IMG/VR virus record: IMGVR_UViG_3300025083_000130
Span: 1 to 31,902 of that record
DNA length: 31,902 nucleotides
DNA from: a virus
Reading direction: 5' to 3' (one strand)
Shown here: piece after piece, positions 1 to 27,344 of the stretch
Position numbering within the stretch: the first letter of the stretch is position 1
Layout of the letters: each line of letters begins with the position of its first letter
The notes under the pieces: generated by a model
What the model saw: the letters and a program-made list of their open reading frames with translations, nothing else
What the model was told of the DNA's origin: nothing
Databases searched by the model: none
Translations under genes and position numbers: made by a program

Positions 1-12
1 GTTGGAAATACC
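1..12. repeat. Left copy of 12-bp terminal direct repeat (candidate cos overhang)
   Basis: GTTGGAAATACC here is identical to positions 31891-31902. A filled-in 12-nt cohesive end would give exactly this, and lambda also has a 12-nt cos overhang. Across the join, an HNH gene lies upstream of terS-terL, as in HK97-like cos phages. A trimmed overlap from circular assembly would look the same. Confidence 0.6.
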
Positions 13-53
13 CGCACACGGGATAGTTGGCAAGGTAGCTTGACCCCCCCCCT
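11..53. other. Non-coding cos-proximal segment with small hairpin and C9 tract
   Basis: This is the left-hand non-coding arm of the inferred cos region, between the HNH stop and the genome end. Positions 11-22 form a perfect CCCG-CACA-CGGG inverted repeat. Positions 44-52 are nine consecutive C (G9 on the coding strand), two bases beyond the HNH stop codon. No gene was found. The hairpin and homopolymer could be terminase recognition or bending elements, but that is inference. Confidence 0.45.
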
Positions 54-893
54 CTATAGCAATCGCCCCTCACGCTTCGCTGCCTTCCTTCTGTTATCTT
101 CTGCCCATAAAGGGCGTAGGTTTGATAGCTGCCACGCTGCTCTCACCTCGTCTTCGTTGGTTCGGTCGAATGAGGACAGAGGAATGATGTGGTCTATATG
201 TATCTCACCTGACATGAACCTCTGCCAGTTCATCCCTTTTGTAAACTGTTTCTCCAGATGTTTTTTTAATTGTCCAACTGAATATCCTGTAAACGCTTCT
301 GCGGTTGGTGTCCGTCCATTTGTTTTTATTGCTGTGCGGAACATATCCCCGACCCTGTAGCCGCGCCTGTTCATGCGGCGGTGGTGCGCCCTCAATCTTT
401 CTTTTAGGTTAAACTCTGGGTCGTTGTGATAGCGGTGTTTGTATATTTCAGCGGTAGTCATTCCGGGATACTTAACACTCCGCCGCACCTTTTTCGGTTT
501 ATAGACCGCGCGCAGCCTTTTAATTATCGCGTGTGTCTCCCTCTTGAACTTCGTCCACTGTTTTAACTCGTCCCGTGTTTGATAGAGTTTGCCTTGCCTC
601 TCGTATATTCTTCTTCGCTCGGCTTGCCTTTGCTCTTTCGTTCTCTTGCGAGCGCGTCTTCTACGCTGTTCCCCTATGCAGTCTCGGCATCTGTTTTTAG
701 AATACATCTCGCCATCAATTTTTTTATGTATGTTACAGAGACCACAAAAAGATAGGTGTGATGGGGCAGGTGGATAAACAGCACCTTTCTCTCGTGCATA
801 TTTTTTTCTTCTTTTTTCATCATGGCAGGGTCGGCATTGATTTTTGGACTTCATAACCTCCTGCTCGCTCTCGCAATACTTACACCAACTCAT
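54..893 (-). CDS. HNH endonuclease with N-terminal zinc-binding Cys pairs
   Basis: A 279-residue HNH nuclease. The N-terminal half has CxxC pairs at about residues 4-7, 20-23, 50-53 and 69-72, which look like two zinc ribbons, followed by a very basic Arg/Lys-rich linker. The HNH core is near the C-terminus: IHIDHIIPL around 231-239, SNLRPL around 257-262 and a further Asn in EDNRRK around 267. Its ATG follows the upstream stop directly (TAGATG). It is the last gene before the genome end, so in a circle it precedes cos and terS; in HK97 an HNH protein (gp74) occupies this place and assists terminase in cos cleavage. A role in packaging is therefore likely, though a homing-type HNH remains possible. 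Confidence 0.85.
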   Translation of the reverse strand: MSWCKYCESEQEVMKSKNQCRPCHDEKRRKKYAREKGAVYPPAPSHLSFCGLCNIHKKIDGEMYSKNRCRDCIGEQRRRRARKRTKEQRQAERRRIYERQGKLYQTRDELKQWTKFKRETHAIIKRLRAVYKPKKVRRSVKYPGMTTAEIYKHRYHNDPEFNLKERLRAHHRRMNRRGYRVGDMFRTAIKTNGRTPTAEAFTGYSVGQLKKHLEKQFTKGMNWQRFMSGEIHIDHIIPLSSFDRTNEDEVRAAWQLSNLRPLWAEDNRRKAAKREGRLL

Positions 894-2749: not shown

Positions 2750-4616
2750 TCTCATTAACTAACCCATTGAAAAAGCTGACACTCTCAGATATGGATGTCC
2801 CCTTCTTAAACTGATACCAGTCATTCGACGACATTTTGCCGATTTTGGCCTCAACAGCACTTCTCCAGTCCGCTTCACGTATGCCGGGTGCGCCATCTTC
2901 ATCGTGTTCTGTCCAATTACCAGCCGCCAACATCTCTTGCAGCGTGTCGATTGCTGTCTGTTGTTTGGCACTCCGGCGCGACTTCGGCTTGGGCAATTCG
3001 TCCATTATGTCCAAAACCAAGCTGCTTTGCTCTTGTGCAAATGCGTCTTGCACAAATCGCACCTCACGCGCATTTAGGGCAATAGGCTCGGCCTCTTGCA
3101 CATCTTTCTGCTTTGCTACCTTTACAACGACAGATTGCGTCCCCTCAGTGCGTTTAATGGCAACAGAGGTATCAACAGCCCCCAACAAAGAAGAACTGCC
3201 ACGCAAGCCCTTGTCGCTGTCTTTGCCGCTATGGTGAACAGCCAGCACAGTGCAGTCGAACCATTCCTTCATTAGGTCGCATGAGCGGATAAACATACCC
3301 ATATCGGTTGCTGAGTTCTCATCAGCACCCGACCCGGCGAATGACCTTGCCAGCGTATCCACTACGATAAGGTCGGGTGATACACCGCCGAGCGTATCCT
3401 CGATGGCGTGTCTCAGTTGTAACACATCTGGAGCATCTTCCATCGCCATACCGATGGGCGTAGTAACGGCATAGAACGGCACACCATCGTCATCTAGCTG
3501 CCTATCCCTATGCCAAGCCTCCGCCCTTACGGCGATGCCGGACTGGCCTTCCATAGCCAAATAAACGACTGCGCCTTGTGATGTGGGTCGCCCGTTCCAG
3601 TCGATACCGTGTGCAATCGACAACGCCCAATCTATCGCTAGGAACGATTTGAATGTTGCTGGTGCGCCATACAGCACCGCAAAGCTGTTCTCGATTAGGT
3701 AATCCGCCACCATAAAGCTGGGCGGAGGGGTAGCCCTTAGTTCTCCGAGCGTCTTGACGCGGATTTTCCGCTCGACAGGAACTGCCGTATCGCTTGCGGC
3801 ATTGCTTGGATGCGGTTGTGTTTTGTCTGGCGCAATATGAAGGTCTGCAATCTTGCCTTCTCTTGCTCGGATAATAGTGCTGGTAACTTTCTTTCGGAAC
3901 TCATCTATTCCTCTCCCCTCTTGGTTCAAATCGCCTGTGCGGCTTCCTACCTTTATTTCATATGTCGGGTAAACTTCTTGCTCCATCCACTGCATAGTCG
4001 GAAAAGTGCCGTGCTTGCGGAAATAGTCGGATATAGAAGCCAGCACCATACTAGCCATATAATGTTCACGGCCATCGACCCGCCGACCAAAAGCATCAAA
4101 AGCACCGCTGCCCATAGGAACGTCAAGGCTTGCAGCAGCCACTCCGGTGGATTGCGCTGCAACCTTTGGAGGAAATATGGCGAAGTCTTCGTCATTTACC
4201 CAACGATAACCTGTGCTTGAGGGGTGTATGACGTAACCGCCGTCACCTCTAACGTCAACACAGCCGTCAATACCAGCACGATTTCTAATGCCATCAGAGT
4301 GCCGATAATAATAGTGCCATCCACCTGATTGCGTCTCAGATACCTTAGTGATGCCCAAAAGTTCCGCATTGTCCTTTACCCAGTCCTTACCTTGTTTTCC
4401 GTCTCTTACGTCAATGTCGATGACCGACACGCCGGAGACTTCTCCGGTTGGCATACCAATAAGAGCAGCACCCGGCAAGGAAAATAACCGCTCAATCTCA
4501 TCTGGGTCTTGCGTAGCCGCCTTGAACCCGCCCTGACAGACAGGACGCTTCTTTACATCGCACGGGAAGACAGGGTAATCCTCTGCCACCTCAAGTGCTG
4601 TGCTTATAATATCCAT
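2721..4616 (-). CDS. Bifunctional prim-pol / RecA-like (RepA-type) helicase
   Basis: A 631-residue replication protein. Residues 1-155 resemble the bifunctional DNA primase/polymerase (prim-pol) domain: VIDIDVRDG around 65-73 with paired Asp, SGGWHYYYRH around 97-106 and DVRGDGGYVIHPS around 121-133. Residues about 290-500 form a RecA-like ATPase with Walker A GAPATFKS (317-324), Walker B DLIVVDT (415-421) and HHSGK near 461-465. It probably makes primers and unwinds DNA at the origin while host polymerase elongates, since no phage polymerase gene is present. It starts by TAATG coupling to the methyltransferase gene, and its last codons lie inside the ATCCATA repeat cluster. Confidence 0.85.
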   Translation of the reverse strand: MDIISTALEVAEDYPVFPCDVKKRPVCQGGFKAATQDPDEIERLFSLPGAALIGMPTGEVSGVSVIDIDVRDGKQGKDWVKDNAELLGITKVSETQSGGWHYYYRHSDGIRNRAGIDGCVDVRGDGGYVIHPSSTGYRWVNDEDFAIFPPKVAAQSTGVAAASLDVPMGSGAFDAFGRRVDGREHYMASMVLASISDYFRKHGTFPTMQWMEQEVYPTYEIKVGSRTGDLNQEGRGIDEFRKKVTSTIIRAREGKIADLHIAPDKTQPHPSNAASDTAVPVERKIRVKTLGELRATPPPSFMVADYLIENSFAVLYGAPATFKSFLAIDWALSIAHGIDWNGRPTSQGAVVYLAMEGQSGIAVRAEAWHRDRQLDDDGVPFYAVTTPIGMAMEDAPDVLQLRHAIEDTLGGVSPDLIVVDTLARSFAGSGADENSATDMGMFIRSCDLMKEWFDCTVLAVHHSGKDSDKGLRGSSSLLGAVDTSVAIKRTEGTQSVVVKVAKQKDVQEAEPIALNAREVRFVQDAFAQEQSSLVLDIMDELPKPKSRRSAKQQTAIDTLQEMLAAGNWTEHDEDGAPGIREADWRSAVEAKIGKMSSNDWYQFKKGTSISESVSFFNGLVNEIWMGMDGNP

Positions 4617-5674
4617 TATAATGCTCCCTCAAGCTGCTTAATTACTCTTCCGATTTGTTCTGGGATTTGCGGGACGACCGCGTTACCCAATGCTTTAATT
4701 CTGTGTGACCGATTGGAAACCCCATTAGCCACTCGACCCACGTTGGGTTCAGCTGCCCAGAGTGTCGGCTGTGACCCGCCACCACTTCTTCTAAATTGCC
4801 CTTGTTTCGATTGGCTAACTGTTCCCTGTTCTTGTCCGTGATTGTCGGGTGAACCTTGTTTGCCCTCGGTGTCGGCCACATCCTTACGTCCGTTCTCAGG
4901 CTCTTGCCCTGACCGCCGCCCGTCGTCTCCTGACTGTCCGCTGCGTTGGGTGTTGCCCACATCTGAGGACTGCTCTGTATTTCCTTCCAAGCCTTCACTG
5001 TGTTCTCGTCCACTTGCTCCCGAAGGTTGGACGGCCACGCTCTGCCCTTCCGCGCCACTGTCGCTTGCTTTACTAGCGACTGCTCCGACCTCTGTGGTAG
5101 GTCGTCCATCGCGCAAGGTGTCGCCCACAGTGGCGGCTCTCGCCACCCACTGTTCATGCTGGGGGACATCTGATTTCCCTTCGCTGTTGGCGTGTGCAAC
5201 AATCCATACTCTGTCTCGTCTGTGCGGGGCATCGACACCGCAAGCTGGAATAACAAATGGCCTTGCGGCGTAGTCTTCGGCTTCCAAGTCAGATAACACC
5301 TCGTCGAGGCCCATGCTGATGTGTCCAGCAACATTCTCGAAAATTCCCCAAGTGGGTCTGATTTCTTTAATAAGCCGATACACTTCAGGCCAGAGGTGAC
5401 GGTCATCTTCCGCGCCTCGCTGCTTCCCGGCAACACTGAATGGCTGGCACGGGTATCCCCCGACGATGACATCTGGTCGAACAATCCCATCTGCTCGGAG
5501 TTGCTCTCCAGTGAGGCTTCGGACATCATCGTAGATTGGTGTGTCAGGCCAATGTCGTCTAAGGACTTCTTGGCAGTATCTTTCGATTTCGCAGAACGCG
5601 ACTGTTTCAAATCCGGCTTTTTCGAGGCCAATGCTAAATCCCCCTATACCACTAAATAAATCTAATACTTTCAT
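4616..5674 (-). CDS. DNA (cytosine-5) methyltransferase
   Basis: A 352-residue C5 cytosine methyltransferase. Motif I DLFSGIGG lies at 5-12 (SAM binding), motif IV GGYPCQPFS at 72-80 with catalytic Cys76, motif VI ENV at 113-115, motif VIII PHRRDRVWIVA near 150-160 and motif X RIKALGNAVVPQI near the C-terminus. The target-recognition region between VIII and X is hydrophilic, low-complexity and repetitive (VxDT/VGNT units). No partner restriction enzyme is visible, so it probably protects phage DNA from host restriction. A good ribosome binding site (AGGGGG, 4 nt before ATG) directly follows a pseudoknot-forming leader. A second frame is open almost throughout. Confidence 0.9.
   Translation of the reverse strand: MKVLDLFSGIGGFSIGLEKAGFETVAFCEIERYCQEVLRRHWPDTPIYDDVRSLTGEQLRADGIVRPDVIVGGYPCQPFSVAGKQRGAEDDRHLWPEVYRLIKEIRPTWGIFENVAGHISMGLDEVLSDLEAEDYAARPFVIPACGVDAPHRRDRVWIVAHANSEGKSDVPQHEQWVARAATVGDTLRDGRPTTEVGAVASKASDSGAEGQSVAVQPSGASGREHSEGLEGNTEQSSDVGNTQRSGQSGDDGRRSGQEPENGRKDVADTEGKQGSPDNHGQEQGTVSQSKQGQFRRSGGGSQPTLWAAEPNVGRVANGVSNRSHRIKALGNAVVPQIPEQIGRVIKQLEGAL
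4642..5631 (-). CDS. Overlapping +1-frame ORF within the methyltransferase gene (possible dual coding)
   Basis: A 330-codon open frame shifted +1 relative to the methyltransferase. Its longest form starts with TTG; in-frame ATGs follow at the MM of TMMSEASLES and at MGLFDQM, and none has a convincing ribosome binding site. The product is not random-looking: it has four (L/M)(W/H)xTPxA units (LHTPTAKG, LWATPCAM, MWATPNAA, MWPTPRAN) and a C-terminal LNPTWVEWLMGFPIG segment, which I recall as recurring in database proteins linked to phage cytosine methyltransferases. It may be a real overlapping gene, a frameshift product or a by-product of constrained codons. Translation is unproven. Confidence 0.35.
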   Translation of the reverse strand: MASKKPDLKQSRSAKSKDTAKKSLDDIGLTHQSTMMSEASLESNSEQMGLFDQMSSSGDTRASHSVLPGSSEARKMTVTSGLKCIGLLKKSDPLGEFSRMLLDTSAWASTRCYLTWKPKTTPQGHLLFQLAVSMPRTDETEYGLLHTPTAKGNQMSPSMNSGWREPPLWATPCAMDDLPQRSEQSLVKQATVARKGRAWPSNLREQVDENTVKAWKEIQSSPQMWATPNAADSQETTGGGQGKSLRTDVRMWPTPRANKVHPTITDKNREQLANRNKGNLEEVVAGHSRHSGQLNPTWVEWLMGFPIGHTELKHWVTRSSRKSQNKSEE

Positions 5675-24716: not shown

Positions 24717-25949
24717 TTACGCACCGTCGTTGTTGACAGCAAAGCTGACAGCATGACGAACAGCAACGTCAACAGTTTGCAACGCGGTAACAGTTACCGT
24801 GCCGCTTGTGCTGTTGCTGTATGGGTCTGCGATGATGTCTAATCCACCGTAAAGACCAATCAAGCAATCGGCAAAATTACCGAAATACAAATCACCAGCA
24901 GTGACTTGGTTAGACACAACAGCGTTGTAGCCGTTGATTTGACCGTCCGGGCCGACTACGAACTGGCCTGAACCAGCGTCTTTCGCAGTCGTTTTCAGCG
25001 CACCATACATGGAGGCTGGCAGGATGTAGGCCAAGTTGCCCAACAGAGCGTTGTCTTCAGCAACGGCAGTTTCCATTGCAACAACTTCTGCGAAGGTCGG
25101 GTTGGCAGCAGCAAAATCAGTCGGGTTGTTAATGCCCGAAGTGTTTTTGATGCCTGTAGGCTGACCCGAAGAACCAGAGCCTTGAAGCGCGCCAGCGTCG
25201 ATTGACAGGGCGATGCCTTGAGCAAGGTCGTTACGGATGAGGTTCTCAATGTCCAAAGATGACTGTTGCATCATCAGGCGAGTGATTTGCGTATGTGCGC
25301 CAACCACGCGAGGGGACATTGTGATTTGACCGAATGTCGGTTCGCTCTCAGCAGAGGCAGCACCTTCGGTGGCAATCCAACCAGCAGACGAAGCGGCTGA
25401 TTTTTTCGGGATTGCAACGCTACCTTGCAGACCGTTCAGAACGGTTGCGCCAGCAGCCATAACGCTTGAAGCGTTACGCAGAACGTCAACGAAATCACCG
25501 CCACGGAAGTCTTCGGCAATCAAGCCAGCGTCGTCAGTGGTGTTGATGTCGCGCTGCGCCCAAGAACGCAGAACTTCGGTCGGAAGCATGATGCCACGAG
25601 CAGAACGACCAGTTGCGCGCTGGGCGGCTTCTGATACTTCACGCTCAAATGCAGCGTCTTCTTGAGCCTGACGGTCAGTCGGGTTTGCCATTGCACGGAT
25701 AGCGCGCAGAACGGAAAACTCACGAACTTCGTTTTTGGTCAGGCCGACTTCGGCAGTTTCGAGGGGCTTGTCACCGATGATTTCGAGAAGTTCACCACGG
25801 AACTCGTCGATTGATTTGTTTTCGGCAACAGCTTTGGCAGCCATTTCGCTGCGCTGGTGTTTTGCGCCCAATTCGATGATTGATGCGACTTCTTTGTTGC
25901 GAGCAGAACGAGCCTCGTCTGCAACAACATTAATATCGATTTCTGACAT
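24717..25949 (-). CDS. Major capsid protein from internal start (HK97 fold)
   Basis: The same frame contains ATG 25949 (residue 466, MSEIDINVV), preceded at 6 nt by a perfect AAGGAG. Translation from here gives 410 residues, the usual length of an HK97-type capsid precursor. This would give abundant capsid subunits and a smaller amount of protease-capsid fusion. The capsid has a helical, charged N-terminal delta-like region (about 1-100) and then the shell fold. Internal initiation is inferred from the ribosome binding site. Confidence 0.65.
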   Translation of the reverse strand: MSEIDINVVADEARSARNKEVASIIELGAKHQRSEMAAKAVAENKSIDEFRGELLEIIGDKPLETAEVGLTKNEVREFSVLRAIRAMANPTDRQAQEDAAFEREVSEAAQRATGRSARGIMLPTEVLRSWAQRDINTTDDAGLIAEDFRGGDFVDVLRNASSVMAAGATVLNGLQGSVAIPKKSAASSAGWIATEGAASAESEPTFGQITMSPRVVGAHTQITRLMMQQSSLDIENLIRNDLAQGIALSIDAGALQGSGSSGQPTGIKNTSGINNPTDFAAANPTFAEVVAMETAVAEDNALLGNLAYILPASMYGALKTTAKDAGSGQFVVGPDGQINGYNAVVSNQVTAGDLYFGNFADCLIGLYGGLDIIADPYSNSTSGTVTVTALQTVDVAVRHAVSFAVNNDGA

Positions 25950-27344
25950 TTCCGTCTCCTTAGTTTCGATAGTTTCAATTTGGGTTTCGGTGGTGACATC
26001 TTTAGAGCGTCCAATACCAACATTTTCATCTGCCGGAATAGATACCAAAGATACCTCCATTACGCGCCAAGAATTGACACGGTAGCTATCCGCATCCTCT
26101 TTTTGCATTTTGTTGACTTGGTAGCCAACGCTGATGTTTGAACGGATGCCATCCGTTACATCATCAAACATCTCTTTAGCCATTCCGTTTTTACCAAACC
26201 GAACTGTTGCTCGCAACACGCGAGACGAACTATCGAGAGTAACATCCTCAACAACACCGATTGTTTGTTTTGGGTCGTGGTCAAGCAAGAGCGGCATACG
26301 CCCAGACTTGGCAAACGACAGGTCAACACTGTCTTCGGTGTGGTCGAGAATTTCTTTGCCGAAGTTGCGCTCCACAGGTGTTTCGCTGGAGACAGCAATC
26401 TTTACTCGGCGTGTTTCTTCATCAATCGCGCCAGCCTTCATGTCGGACGCGCGATGCTGCATTTCTTGAGGGGCGGCTCGGTCGGCTTCTTCTTCCGGGG
26501 CTTCTTCAACCTCGGCTTCGGCTTCTTCTTCGCCCTCATGTTTGGCGTAGACAATGGTTACCGTCTCGTCATCGTCCTGCACGGCGACAACGTGGCGTTC
26601 TTCCAGTTCATCCGTTTCAACGATTTCCTCGACGATTTCCTCAACGATTTCTTCGCTGGTTTCTCTAAGGTCAGTCATTGTTTCAAATCCTATATAATCA
26701 AAGTTGTCATCAGAGCGTTCTTTGCTCGACATCGGATGTCCTGATGGTAACAAATCCGTGTCATGTTTGCCACTGCGGAATTTTCCGTTGCGGAGGACGT
26801 ATAAAAAGCTATTCACGCGCGCGTATGCCCACTGGTCTGGTGAAGATACATTCGGACGAACACTGCCGGGATTGGTCTTATACGCACCAACGCCACGGCG
26901 AAATACGGCAACCAATGTGCGTGTGCTTGTCCGCTTGGATGCGGTGTCGCCAACCTTCTCATTGTGGTCGGCGGCTTTCTTCGCTAGTGCGGTGCGAACC
27001 TTGTCGCTGACTTCCTCGGCGCGTTCATCTTTGTCGATAATCTTGACCAAGCCACGCGCCCAACGCTGTCCGGCTGTTCCGCCCCACAAATCCCACGCAA
27101 TTCTAAATGAAGTCGGTCCGCCATCAGGCTTCTTGGCATCATAGTGCTTCGCCTTATTAACTTCGTGGCGAGAGAAGAACGAGTGCATACGCTTGACGGT
27201 GCTTTCCGACAGGCTCTTTCCGTTAGCAATATCTCTAGCACGGGCAACGCCAACAGCAGTCCCGCCGCGACCATACTTGCGGCGCATTTCAAGACCGCGC
27301 TTGGCGGCGATAACCATTCCGTCAGTCGGCTTATAACTCGCCAT
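24717..27344 (-). CDS. Fusion: two N-terminal modules + prohead protease + HK97-fold major capsid protein
   Basis: An 875-residue polyprotein. Residues 1-103 (DGMVIAAKRGLEMR ... RIAWDLWGG) are a module I recall as frequent in marine phage proteins. About 145-205 is a second module (YKTNPGSVRPN, QWAYARVNSFLYVLRNGK), followed by an acidic EEIV repeat linker (230-290). Residues 310-447 are a prohead protease with His356 (LLLDHD), Ser405 (SNISVGY) and Glu430 (MEVSLVSIPAD); the His-Ser spacing of 49 equals HK97. From about 466 comes the capsid protein (Glu-rich delta-like region, then the HK97 fold, with NLIRNDLAQGIALSIDAGAL). The ATG has GGAG 6 nt upstream and overlaps the portal end. Confidence 0.8.
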   Translation of the reverse strand: MASYKPTDGMVIAAKRGLEMRRKYGRGGTAVGVARARDIANGKSLSESTVKRMHSFFSRHEVNKAKHYDAKKPDGGPTSFRIAWDLWGGTAGQRWARGLVKIIDKDERAEEVSDKVRTALAKKAADHNEKVGDTASKRTSTRTLVAVFRRGVGAYKTNPGSVRPNVSSPDQWAYARVNSFLYVLRNGKFRSGKHDTDLLPSGHPMSSKERSDDNFDYIGFETMTDLRETSEEIVEEIVEEIVETDELEERHVVAVQDDDETVTIVYAKHEGEEEAEAEVEEAPEEEADRAAPQEMQHRASDMKAGAIDEETRRVKIAVSSETPVERNFGKEILDHTEDSVDLSFAKSGRMPLLLDHDPKQTIGVVEDVTLDSSSRVLRATVRFGKNGMAKEMFDDVTDGIRSNISVGYQVNKMQKEDADSYRVNSWRVMEVSLVSIPADENVGIGRSKDVTTETQIETIETKETEMSEIDINVVADEARSARNKEVASIIELGAKHQRSEMAAKAVAENKSIDEFRGELLEIIGDKPLETAEVGLTKNEVREFSVLRAIRAMANPTDRQAQEDAAFEREVSEAAQRATGRSARGIMLPTEVLRSWAQRDINTTDDAGLIAEDFRGGDFVDVLRNASSVMAAGATVLNGLQGSVAIPKKSAASSAGWIATEGAASAESEPTFGQITMSPRVVGAHTQITRLMMQQSSLDIENLIRNDLAQGIALSIDAGALQGSGSSGQPTGIKNTSGINNPTDFAAANPTFAEVVAMETAVAEDNALLGNLAYILPASMYGALKTTAKDAGSGQFVVGPDGQINGYNAVVSNQVTAGDLYFGNFADCLIGLYGGLDIIADPYSNSTSGTVTVTALQTVDVAVRHAVSFAVNNDGA
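25956..25961 (-). promoter_or_regulatory. Internal Shine-Dalgarno AAGGAG for capsid start
   Basis: AAGGAG lies 6 nt before ATG 25949, and its bases also encode Lys-Glu of the fusion (KETEM). It is as strong as the best gene starts in the window, and the ATG is exactly at the protease-capsid boundary, so chance is unlikely though not excluded. A weaker candidate (AGGA, 9 nt before ATG 26678) would start the protease part. Confidence 0.65.
26619..26654 (-). repeat. 12-bp tandem repeat, three units, encoding EEIV repeats
   Basis: Three consecutive 12-bp units, AACGATTTCCTC with one or two changes, give EEIV-EEIV-EEIV in the acidic linker of the capsid fusion. This may form a short coiled coil or flexible spacer, and its copy number could change by slippage. 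Confidence 0.7.

Follow-up and report, generated by a model that had tools for sequence, protein, structure and literature searches.

Nested reading frames of a phage C5-cytosine DNA methyltransferase gene very probably encode both subunits of one heterodimeric enzyme

What is the meaning of a long open reading frame that lies inside, and on the same strand as, the gene of a recognisable enzyme? The question is raised by an IMG/VR virus record of 31.9 kb (IMGVR_UViG_3300025083_000130) that carries a tailed-phage gene set (portal, head, tail and replication); we refer to the whole stretch analysed, 31,902 nucleotides, as the window. The enzyme, here called alpha, is the catalytic subunit of a C5-cytosine DNA methyltransferase (352 aa; 4616..5674, minus strand), and the second frame, here called beta, is a nested gene in frame +1 of alpha (282 aa plus stop; 4642..5490, minus strand). 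The beta stop codon is at 4644-4642 and the same frame is open upstream as far as 5640. As the two genes are drawn here, they overlap by 849 nt. An earlier note on this DNA had reported that a second frame of 330 codons (329 aa plus stop) is open through the methyltransferase gene (5631-4642, minus strand, +1 of 5674-4616), which is correct, and had proposed dual coding, by either an overlapping gene or a frameshifted isoform.

The identity of alpha follows from its match to PF00145 (E 4.9e-46, confined to residues 1-193) together with PCQ, ENV and motif X; it also matches phrog_363 (E 5.9e-81), and all PDB sequence matches to it fall inside approximately residues 1-165. With the motifs numbered as is usual for C5-methyltransferases, we located in the sequence, all on the minus strand, motif I (VLDLFSGIGGFSIGLEKAG, 5612..5668), the catalytic PCQ of motif IV (5444..5452), ENV of motif VI (5330..5338) and HRRDR of motif VIII (5210..5224). 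Motif X (ALGNAVVPQI, 4664..4693, minus strand) lies within the overlap, just 5′ of the beta stop. Residues 165-320 form a linker (4715..5182, minus strand) of low model confidence, the DNA of which is also that of the beta recognition region (TRD). In the AF2 model of alpha (1..352) the catalytic fold is mostly confident and aligns with M.HhaI over 201 residues (Z 20.7, rmsd 2.8), and the motif X helices are at 322-330 and 336-351, whilst pLDDT is below 50 over residues 165-216 and 218-320. At the 3′ end of alpha, its stop codon overlaps the start of a downstream primase-like gene (TAATG, 4614-4618), an arrangement that suggests translational coupling. Elsewhere in the window, an 875-aa protein (24717-27344) matches major head proteins over residues 295-872 and, more weakly and overlapping those matches, a head maturation protease; it may be a protease-capsid fusion.

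Four 12-nt units described in the earlier note are found on the minus strand where it had placed them, each read in both frames: VAHA in alpha and LHTPTA in beta (5189..5200), VGDT and LWATPCA (5117..5128), VGNT and MWATPNA (4949..4960), and VADT and MWPTPRA (4868..4879). LNPTWVEWLMGFPIG does lie near the end of the second frame (4752-4708), as had been claimed, but it is not opposite the conserved motif that had been named. It overlies alpha EPNVGRVANGVSNR, which stands just ahead of ALGNAVVPQI (4693-4664).

Is the second frame maintained by selection? Relatives were fetched with the N-terminal half of alpha only (residues 1-163), so that the query itself exerted no choice for an open second frame. 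With genes defined by an open alpha frame and exact duplicates removed, this gave 79 distinct genes, of which 76 were complete and used; the three that run off contig ends were left out and none was excluded for a short complete alpha. The +1 frame was open from alpha codon 66 or earlier to within 60 codons of the alpha end in 76/76 genes. When synonymous codons are shuffled so that the protein sequence and codon usage of each alpha are preserved, 482 stops are expected in the +1 frame between alpha codon 63 and 35 codons short of the end, compared with 9 observed; over codons 63-160 the expectation is 326 and none was seen. The third frame of the same genes has 1194 stops against 1257 expected, and a control set of 67 neighbouring genes has 1042 where 1064 are expected. 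The window alone has no +1 stop in 254 codons (4.3 expected; 0/200 shuffles were as stop-free), and 43 genes retrieved with full-length alpha have 8 compared with 166 expected. When the shuffle is reversed and beta is kept, the linker should contain 383 alpha-frame stops but has none (third frame, 1255 versus 1196).

The pattern of substitution differs between regions. We counted changes by alpha codon position in 24 of 66 candidate pairs, using each gene once, and give here the rates at alpha positions 1/2/3 for the 15 pairs with at least 90% identity. Upstream of the overlap they are.017/.014/.111, the ordinary pattern for alpha. Within the catalytic overlap (.025/.015/.061) alpha constraint dominates, whilst the alpha wobble rate is approximately halved (Fisher p 2e-5, a test that assumes independent sites, as does the next). 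In the alpha linker the pattern becomes.153/.057/.051 (Fisher p 3e-21), with 236/1538 changes at the beta wobble position versus 78/1522 at the alpha wobble position. The free position in the linker is thus the third position of beta, and beta is therefore the constrained protein there. Beta motif IX gives.040/.013/.013, and past the beta stop the alpha pattern is back (.034/.031/.131). More distant pairs show a weaker contrast, the beta third position still being the most changed in the linker. In L001, the nearest relative, identity is 90% for the second frame compared with 83% for alpha, and the pair formed by the window and L001 alone shows 46/22/17 linker changes at alpha positions 1/2/3.

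A sceptic might hold that the frame is open by chance, an untranslated by-product of alpha protein conservation and codon usage. Some of the second-frame similarity does follow from conserved alpha motifs, and 16 single-frame methyltransferases are likewise somewhat depleted of +1 stops (69 versus 117 expected), a depletion that is not comparable with that of the nested genes. However, the shortfall of stops persists against shuffles that preserve alpha, linker changes gather at the wobble position of beta, and the nearest relative is closer in the second frame than in alpha, which makes chance very improbable. The second frame is coding, and dual coding is demonstrated through selection; for the N-terminal ~95 residues of beta the support comes from stop avoidance and the halved change at alpha wobble positions. 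The earlier note had proposed that constraint be measured in each frame, and had named frequent second-frame stops in homologues, or constraint confined to the enzyme frame, as outcomes that would speak against dual coding. Both were looked for; stops are nearly absent and constraint extends to beta.

Where beta begins was less well anticipated. The earlier note ran the second frame from 5631, where there is a TTG, whereas in 67/76 homologues a stop between alpha codons 38 and 63 closes the frame, and for this reason we prefer the ATG at 5490 (5490-5488; alpha codon 62) as the most likely start. Within alpha codons 50-72 the 76 genes offer an ATG in 67 cases, a TTG in 8 and no start codon in one. 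The offset of ATG 5490, 184 nt, equals that of an annotated internal gene in phage Lily; ATGs at 5529, 5526 and 5472 are possible alternatives. It had also been stated that the second frame lacks a good ribosome binding site. This holds for the window, where the internal site is weak and the nearest candidate Shine-Dalgarno sequence, GGAG (5506..5509, minus strand), is 15 nt 5′ of ATG 5490, but not for most relatives, many of which show a canonical sequence, for example GATATAAAGGAGCTAACACATG, with AAAGGAG ~7 nt 5′ of the start. Duplexes with the anti-Shine-Dalgarno sequence have a mean energy of -5.75 kcal/mol compared with -3.02 in shuffles, and the real site beats the shuffle mean in 61/75 genes (L169, with no start codon in range, was left out), with a slight bias towards strong sites because the candidate with the best site was chosen per gene.

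What, then, is beta? Besides its WxTPxA modules it contains the motif IX region that alpha is without (LNPTWVEWLMGFPIGHT, 4702..4752, minus strand), and single-frame methyltransferases have the same block directly before motif X; within beta, LNPTWVEWLMGFP is homologous to the block preceding X in single-chain enzymes. A DNA scan with the pattern FVEWMMG[LF]P returned 80 loci, which were classed by text patterns. The block is in frame with motif X or with motifs I-VIII in 37 of these, which makes it part of a single-chain enzyme, just before X; in 41 it is in the +1 frame with I-VIII or X in the other, and two were unclassed. Single-frame phage C5-methyltransferases read ...LxPxFVEWMMGLPxGWVT..LGNGVVPQQA and have TP modules between VIII and X. 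A HMMER profile of beta (built without L041 and L066) matches 16/16 single-frame methyltransferases, and several of the matches include the TP modules upstream of motif IX. Conversely, a profile of the single-frame enzymes matches 132 of the 141 betas that end before alpha, compared with 0/141 shuffled and 0/141 third-frame sequences. Since the single-frame enzymes had been found by the motif IX pattern, the motif IX part of the match is partly built in; the TP modules are absent from that pattern. At the level of sequence, these matches show the C-terminal half of beta to be homologous to the VIII-X interval of single-chain C5-methyltransferases, and beta most likely supplies target recognition. 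The earlier note had missed that the second frame most likely contributes the TRD and motif IX to the very enzyme in whose gene it lies, and that M.EcoHK31I is a precedent.

Across 165 loci, [LWFYM]xTP modules number from 0 to 8 per beta, most often 3, with a median spacing of 39 residues, and their number tracks beta length (r 0.75); it may be linked to target recognition. Both the window beta (E 5.6e-33) and 77/77 aligned betas match phrog_1008, named 'DNA methyltransferase', a misleading name because the catalytic motifs sit in the other frame.

Might beta instead be a separate protein with another task, such as an inhibitor or a regulator, its overlap with alpha incidental? Modelled alone, beta gives a pLDDT of 60 and a pTM of 0.23; Foldseek with this model found no match at E 0.001 or better, a null that says little because the model is poor. 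In addition, a phmmer search of PDB sequences with the second frame returned nothing useful, and Pfam and NCBIfam profiles gave no useful match for beta. A poor model of beta alone might equally fit a subunit that needs its partner. Against a separate task stand the homology of its C-terminal half to the very interval that alpha is without, and three loci in which alpha ends past motif VIII and motif X is on beta (L041, 2790-4150, with TRD, IX and X all on beta; L351; L371). There X follows IX, the canonical order. We consider a separate task very improbable.

We conclude that alpha and beta are very probably the two subunits of a single heterodimeric C5-cytosine methyltransferase, similar in kind to M.EcoHK31I. 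Alpha would form the catalytic large domain (motifs I-VIII), responsible for AdoMet binding and catalysis, and would carry motif X at its C-terminus, joined through a long, probably disordered linker. Beta would be translated in the +1 frame, from the internal start at about codon 62 of alpha, and would supply the recognition region (the WxTPxA modules) and motif IX (LNPxWVEWLMGFPxGWT), both of which lie between VIII and X in single-chain relatives. Thus the same DNA could be a mere linker for alpha and a recognition region for beta. We infer the production of beta, its binding to alpha, the need for both subunits, the target sequence and the biological role, which is probably to protect phage DNA from host restriction by methylating it.

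An alternative is a programmed +1 frameshift, by which ribosomes would pass from alpha into beta near motif VIII and produce a fused isoform that has a second recognition region. Consistent with it, the +1 relation holds in 80/80 of the best 80 of 264 cellular relatives, and one locus (L122) is a natural in-frame fusion of the N-terminal half of alpha to the C-terminal half of beta. Such a fusion, however, would have no need of a conserved internal Shine-Dalgarno sequence and ATG near codon 60, nor of a beta frame free of stops over codons 63-160, and its product would be without motif X. We regard a frameshift as highly improbable. The two alternatives of the earlier note thus fare differently, and an overlapping gene with an internal start fits much better than an isoform, because relatives share the internal Shine-Dalgarno sequence, the ATG and the upstream second-frame stop.

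Directly past motif VIII, and within both frames, one sub-family has a poly-G tract of 10-17 G (L417-L464, L122, L124-L126 and L133). The first series comprises 48 IMG/VR contigs from a pattern search, and in 47/48 the tract is clear of the contig end; its lengths are G10 in 1, G11 in 7, G12 in 11, G13 in 13, G14 in 11, G15 in 3 and G17 in 1. Among 39 scorable contigs 12 have an alpha that continues to motif X, and ten of these are G13; in nine with G12 the alpha frame leads into that of motif IX, and the remainder run mostly into the third frame. G13 thus usually leaves both subunits intact, and G12 joins the N-terminal half of alpha to the motif IX region of beta. By its sequence the tract could be a contingency tract that switches both subunits together, whilst the length variation may possibly be slippage in sequencing or assembly, which would yield the same picture.

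The arrangement is widespread: IMG/VR contains at least 587 relatives of the second frame, and GTDB genomes yielded 264 confirmed candidates. The best 80 of these 264, which include repeat copies (L372-L376, L387-L389 and L394-L395), belong by record title to Bacillota, Pseudomonadota, Bacteroidota, spirochaetes, planctomycetes and other groups, and in all 80 alpha is in the -1 frame relative to beta. Six of the 80 have no motif X in alpha by pattern: two have X on beta (L351 and L371), three have an alpha frame that is broken or partly matched (L369, L406 and L409) and one is near a contig end (L338). A collection of isolate phages has 70 records with a second-frame match at 1e-5. Three-frame readings show the same layout in the isolate phages Lily, Lc-Nu, C72C1, VLCpiM12a and ABMM1 and in two E. 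coli chromosomes. At the DNA level the VLCpiM12a gene is matched in 56/5,426 E. coli genomes, nesting having been examined in two; a prevalence check matched 1/6 genomes, all of one genus. It might be supposed that such loci are single-chain methyltransferases decayed through frameshifts or sequencing error, given that single-frame enzymes with the same modules exist and that a few loci have broken frames (L032 and L369). Yet the layout is intact in 76/76 genes, five isolate phages and two E. coli chromosomes, and purifying selection acts on both frames; decay is extremely improbable.

Annotation of these loci is uneven. Both E. coli records annotate alpha and omit beta, whilst in Klebsiella phage VLCpiM12a (L465) the 'DNA methyltransferase' CDS, M12a_00050, is the beta frame and the catalytic alpha is unannotated; the record of phage Lily annotates both. 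Methylation specificity is probably misassigned, since annotation often keeps one frame or gives the name 'DNA methyltransferase' to the non-catalytic one. In the open PMC literature we recognised no report of this family among papers on overlapping or nested C5-methyltransferase genes, saw nothing related by title on phase-variable phage C5-methyltransferases, and found none on P. larvae phages with an 'internal gene'. We tentatively propose, as somewhat less than an even chance, a large and mostly unannotated phage and prophage family that encodes both subunits in the same DNA and includes a sub-family in which a G10-G17 tract acts as a phase switch, G12 fusing the two halves. If so, a recognition region in one frame would be a flexible linker in the other, and a single slip in the G tract would turn both subunits on or off.

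This kind of enzyme is already known; its wide distribution and poor annotation are the unusual features. Few long same-strand overlaps in bacteria or their viruses have been established as under selection in both frames, and the present one is found repeatedly, across phages and the genomes of many bacterial phyla. The family would be a good system for the study of constraint shared between two frames and, as a natural split methyltransferase, of use for targeted methylation.

Among known systems, gp62/gp63 of phage Lily ('g62 internal gene') is nested likewise, with an internal start that again lies at 184 nt, and was so annotated by its depositors; its linker and beta are shorter, and the function given in the record is a methyltransferase name only. 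The single-frame phage C5-methyltransferases share with the window the motif IX block and the TP modules between VIII and X, but are one chain in one frame. M.AquI, a split C5-methyltransferase, resembles the locus in drawing two polypeptides out of one region, and three variants (L041, L351 and L371) come closer still, alpha ending past VIII with the remainder on beta, inside the nested layout. In M.AquI motif X is on the small subunit (PMC3404938). An enzyme of the M.AquI type would carry its TRD together with IX and X on the small subunit; the window differs in having motif X on alpha, and its genes overlap by 849 nt. The closest likeness is to M.EcoHK31I (YGGCCR), a heterodimeric C5-methyltransferase in which the gene of the small subunit reportedly lies within that of the large subunit, in a different frame (Lee, Kam and Shaw, 1995), as beta (5490-4642) is inside alpha (5674-4616) in frame +1. 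The large subunit of M.EcoHK31I carries motifs I-VIII and X and the small subunit motif IX (PMC3404938), the same division as between window alpha and beta. The window locus, in comparison with M.EcoHK31I as described, is phage-encoded and has no recognised restriction partner. Moreover, the predicted TRD of M.EcoHK31I is placed in the large subunit (PMC3404938), whereas here selection and homology point to beta.
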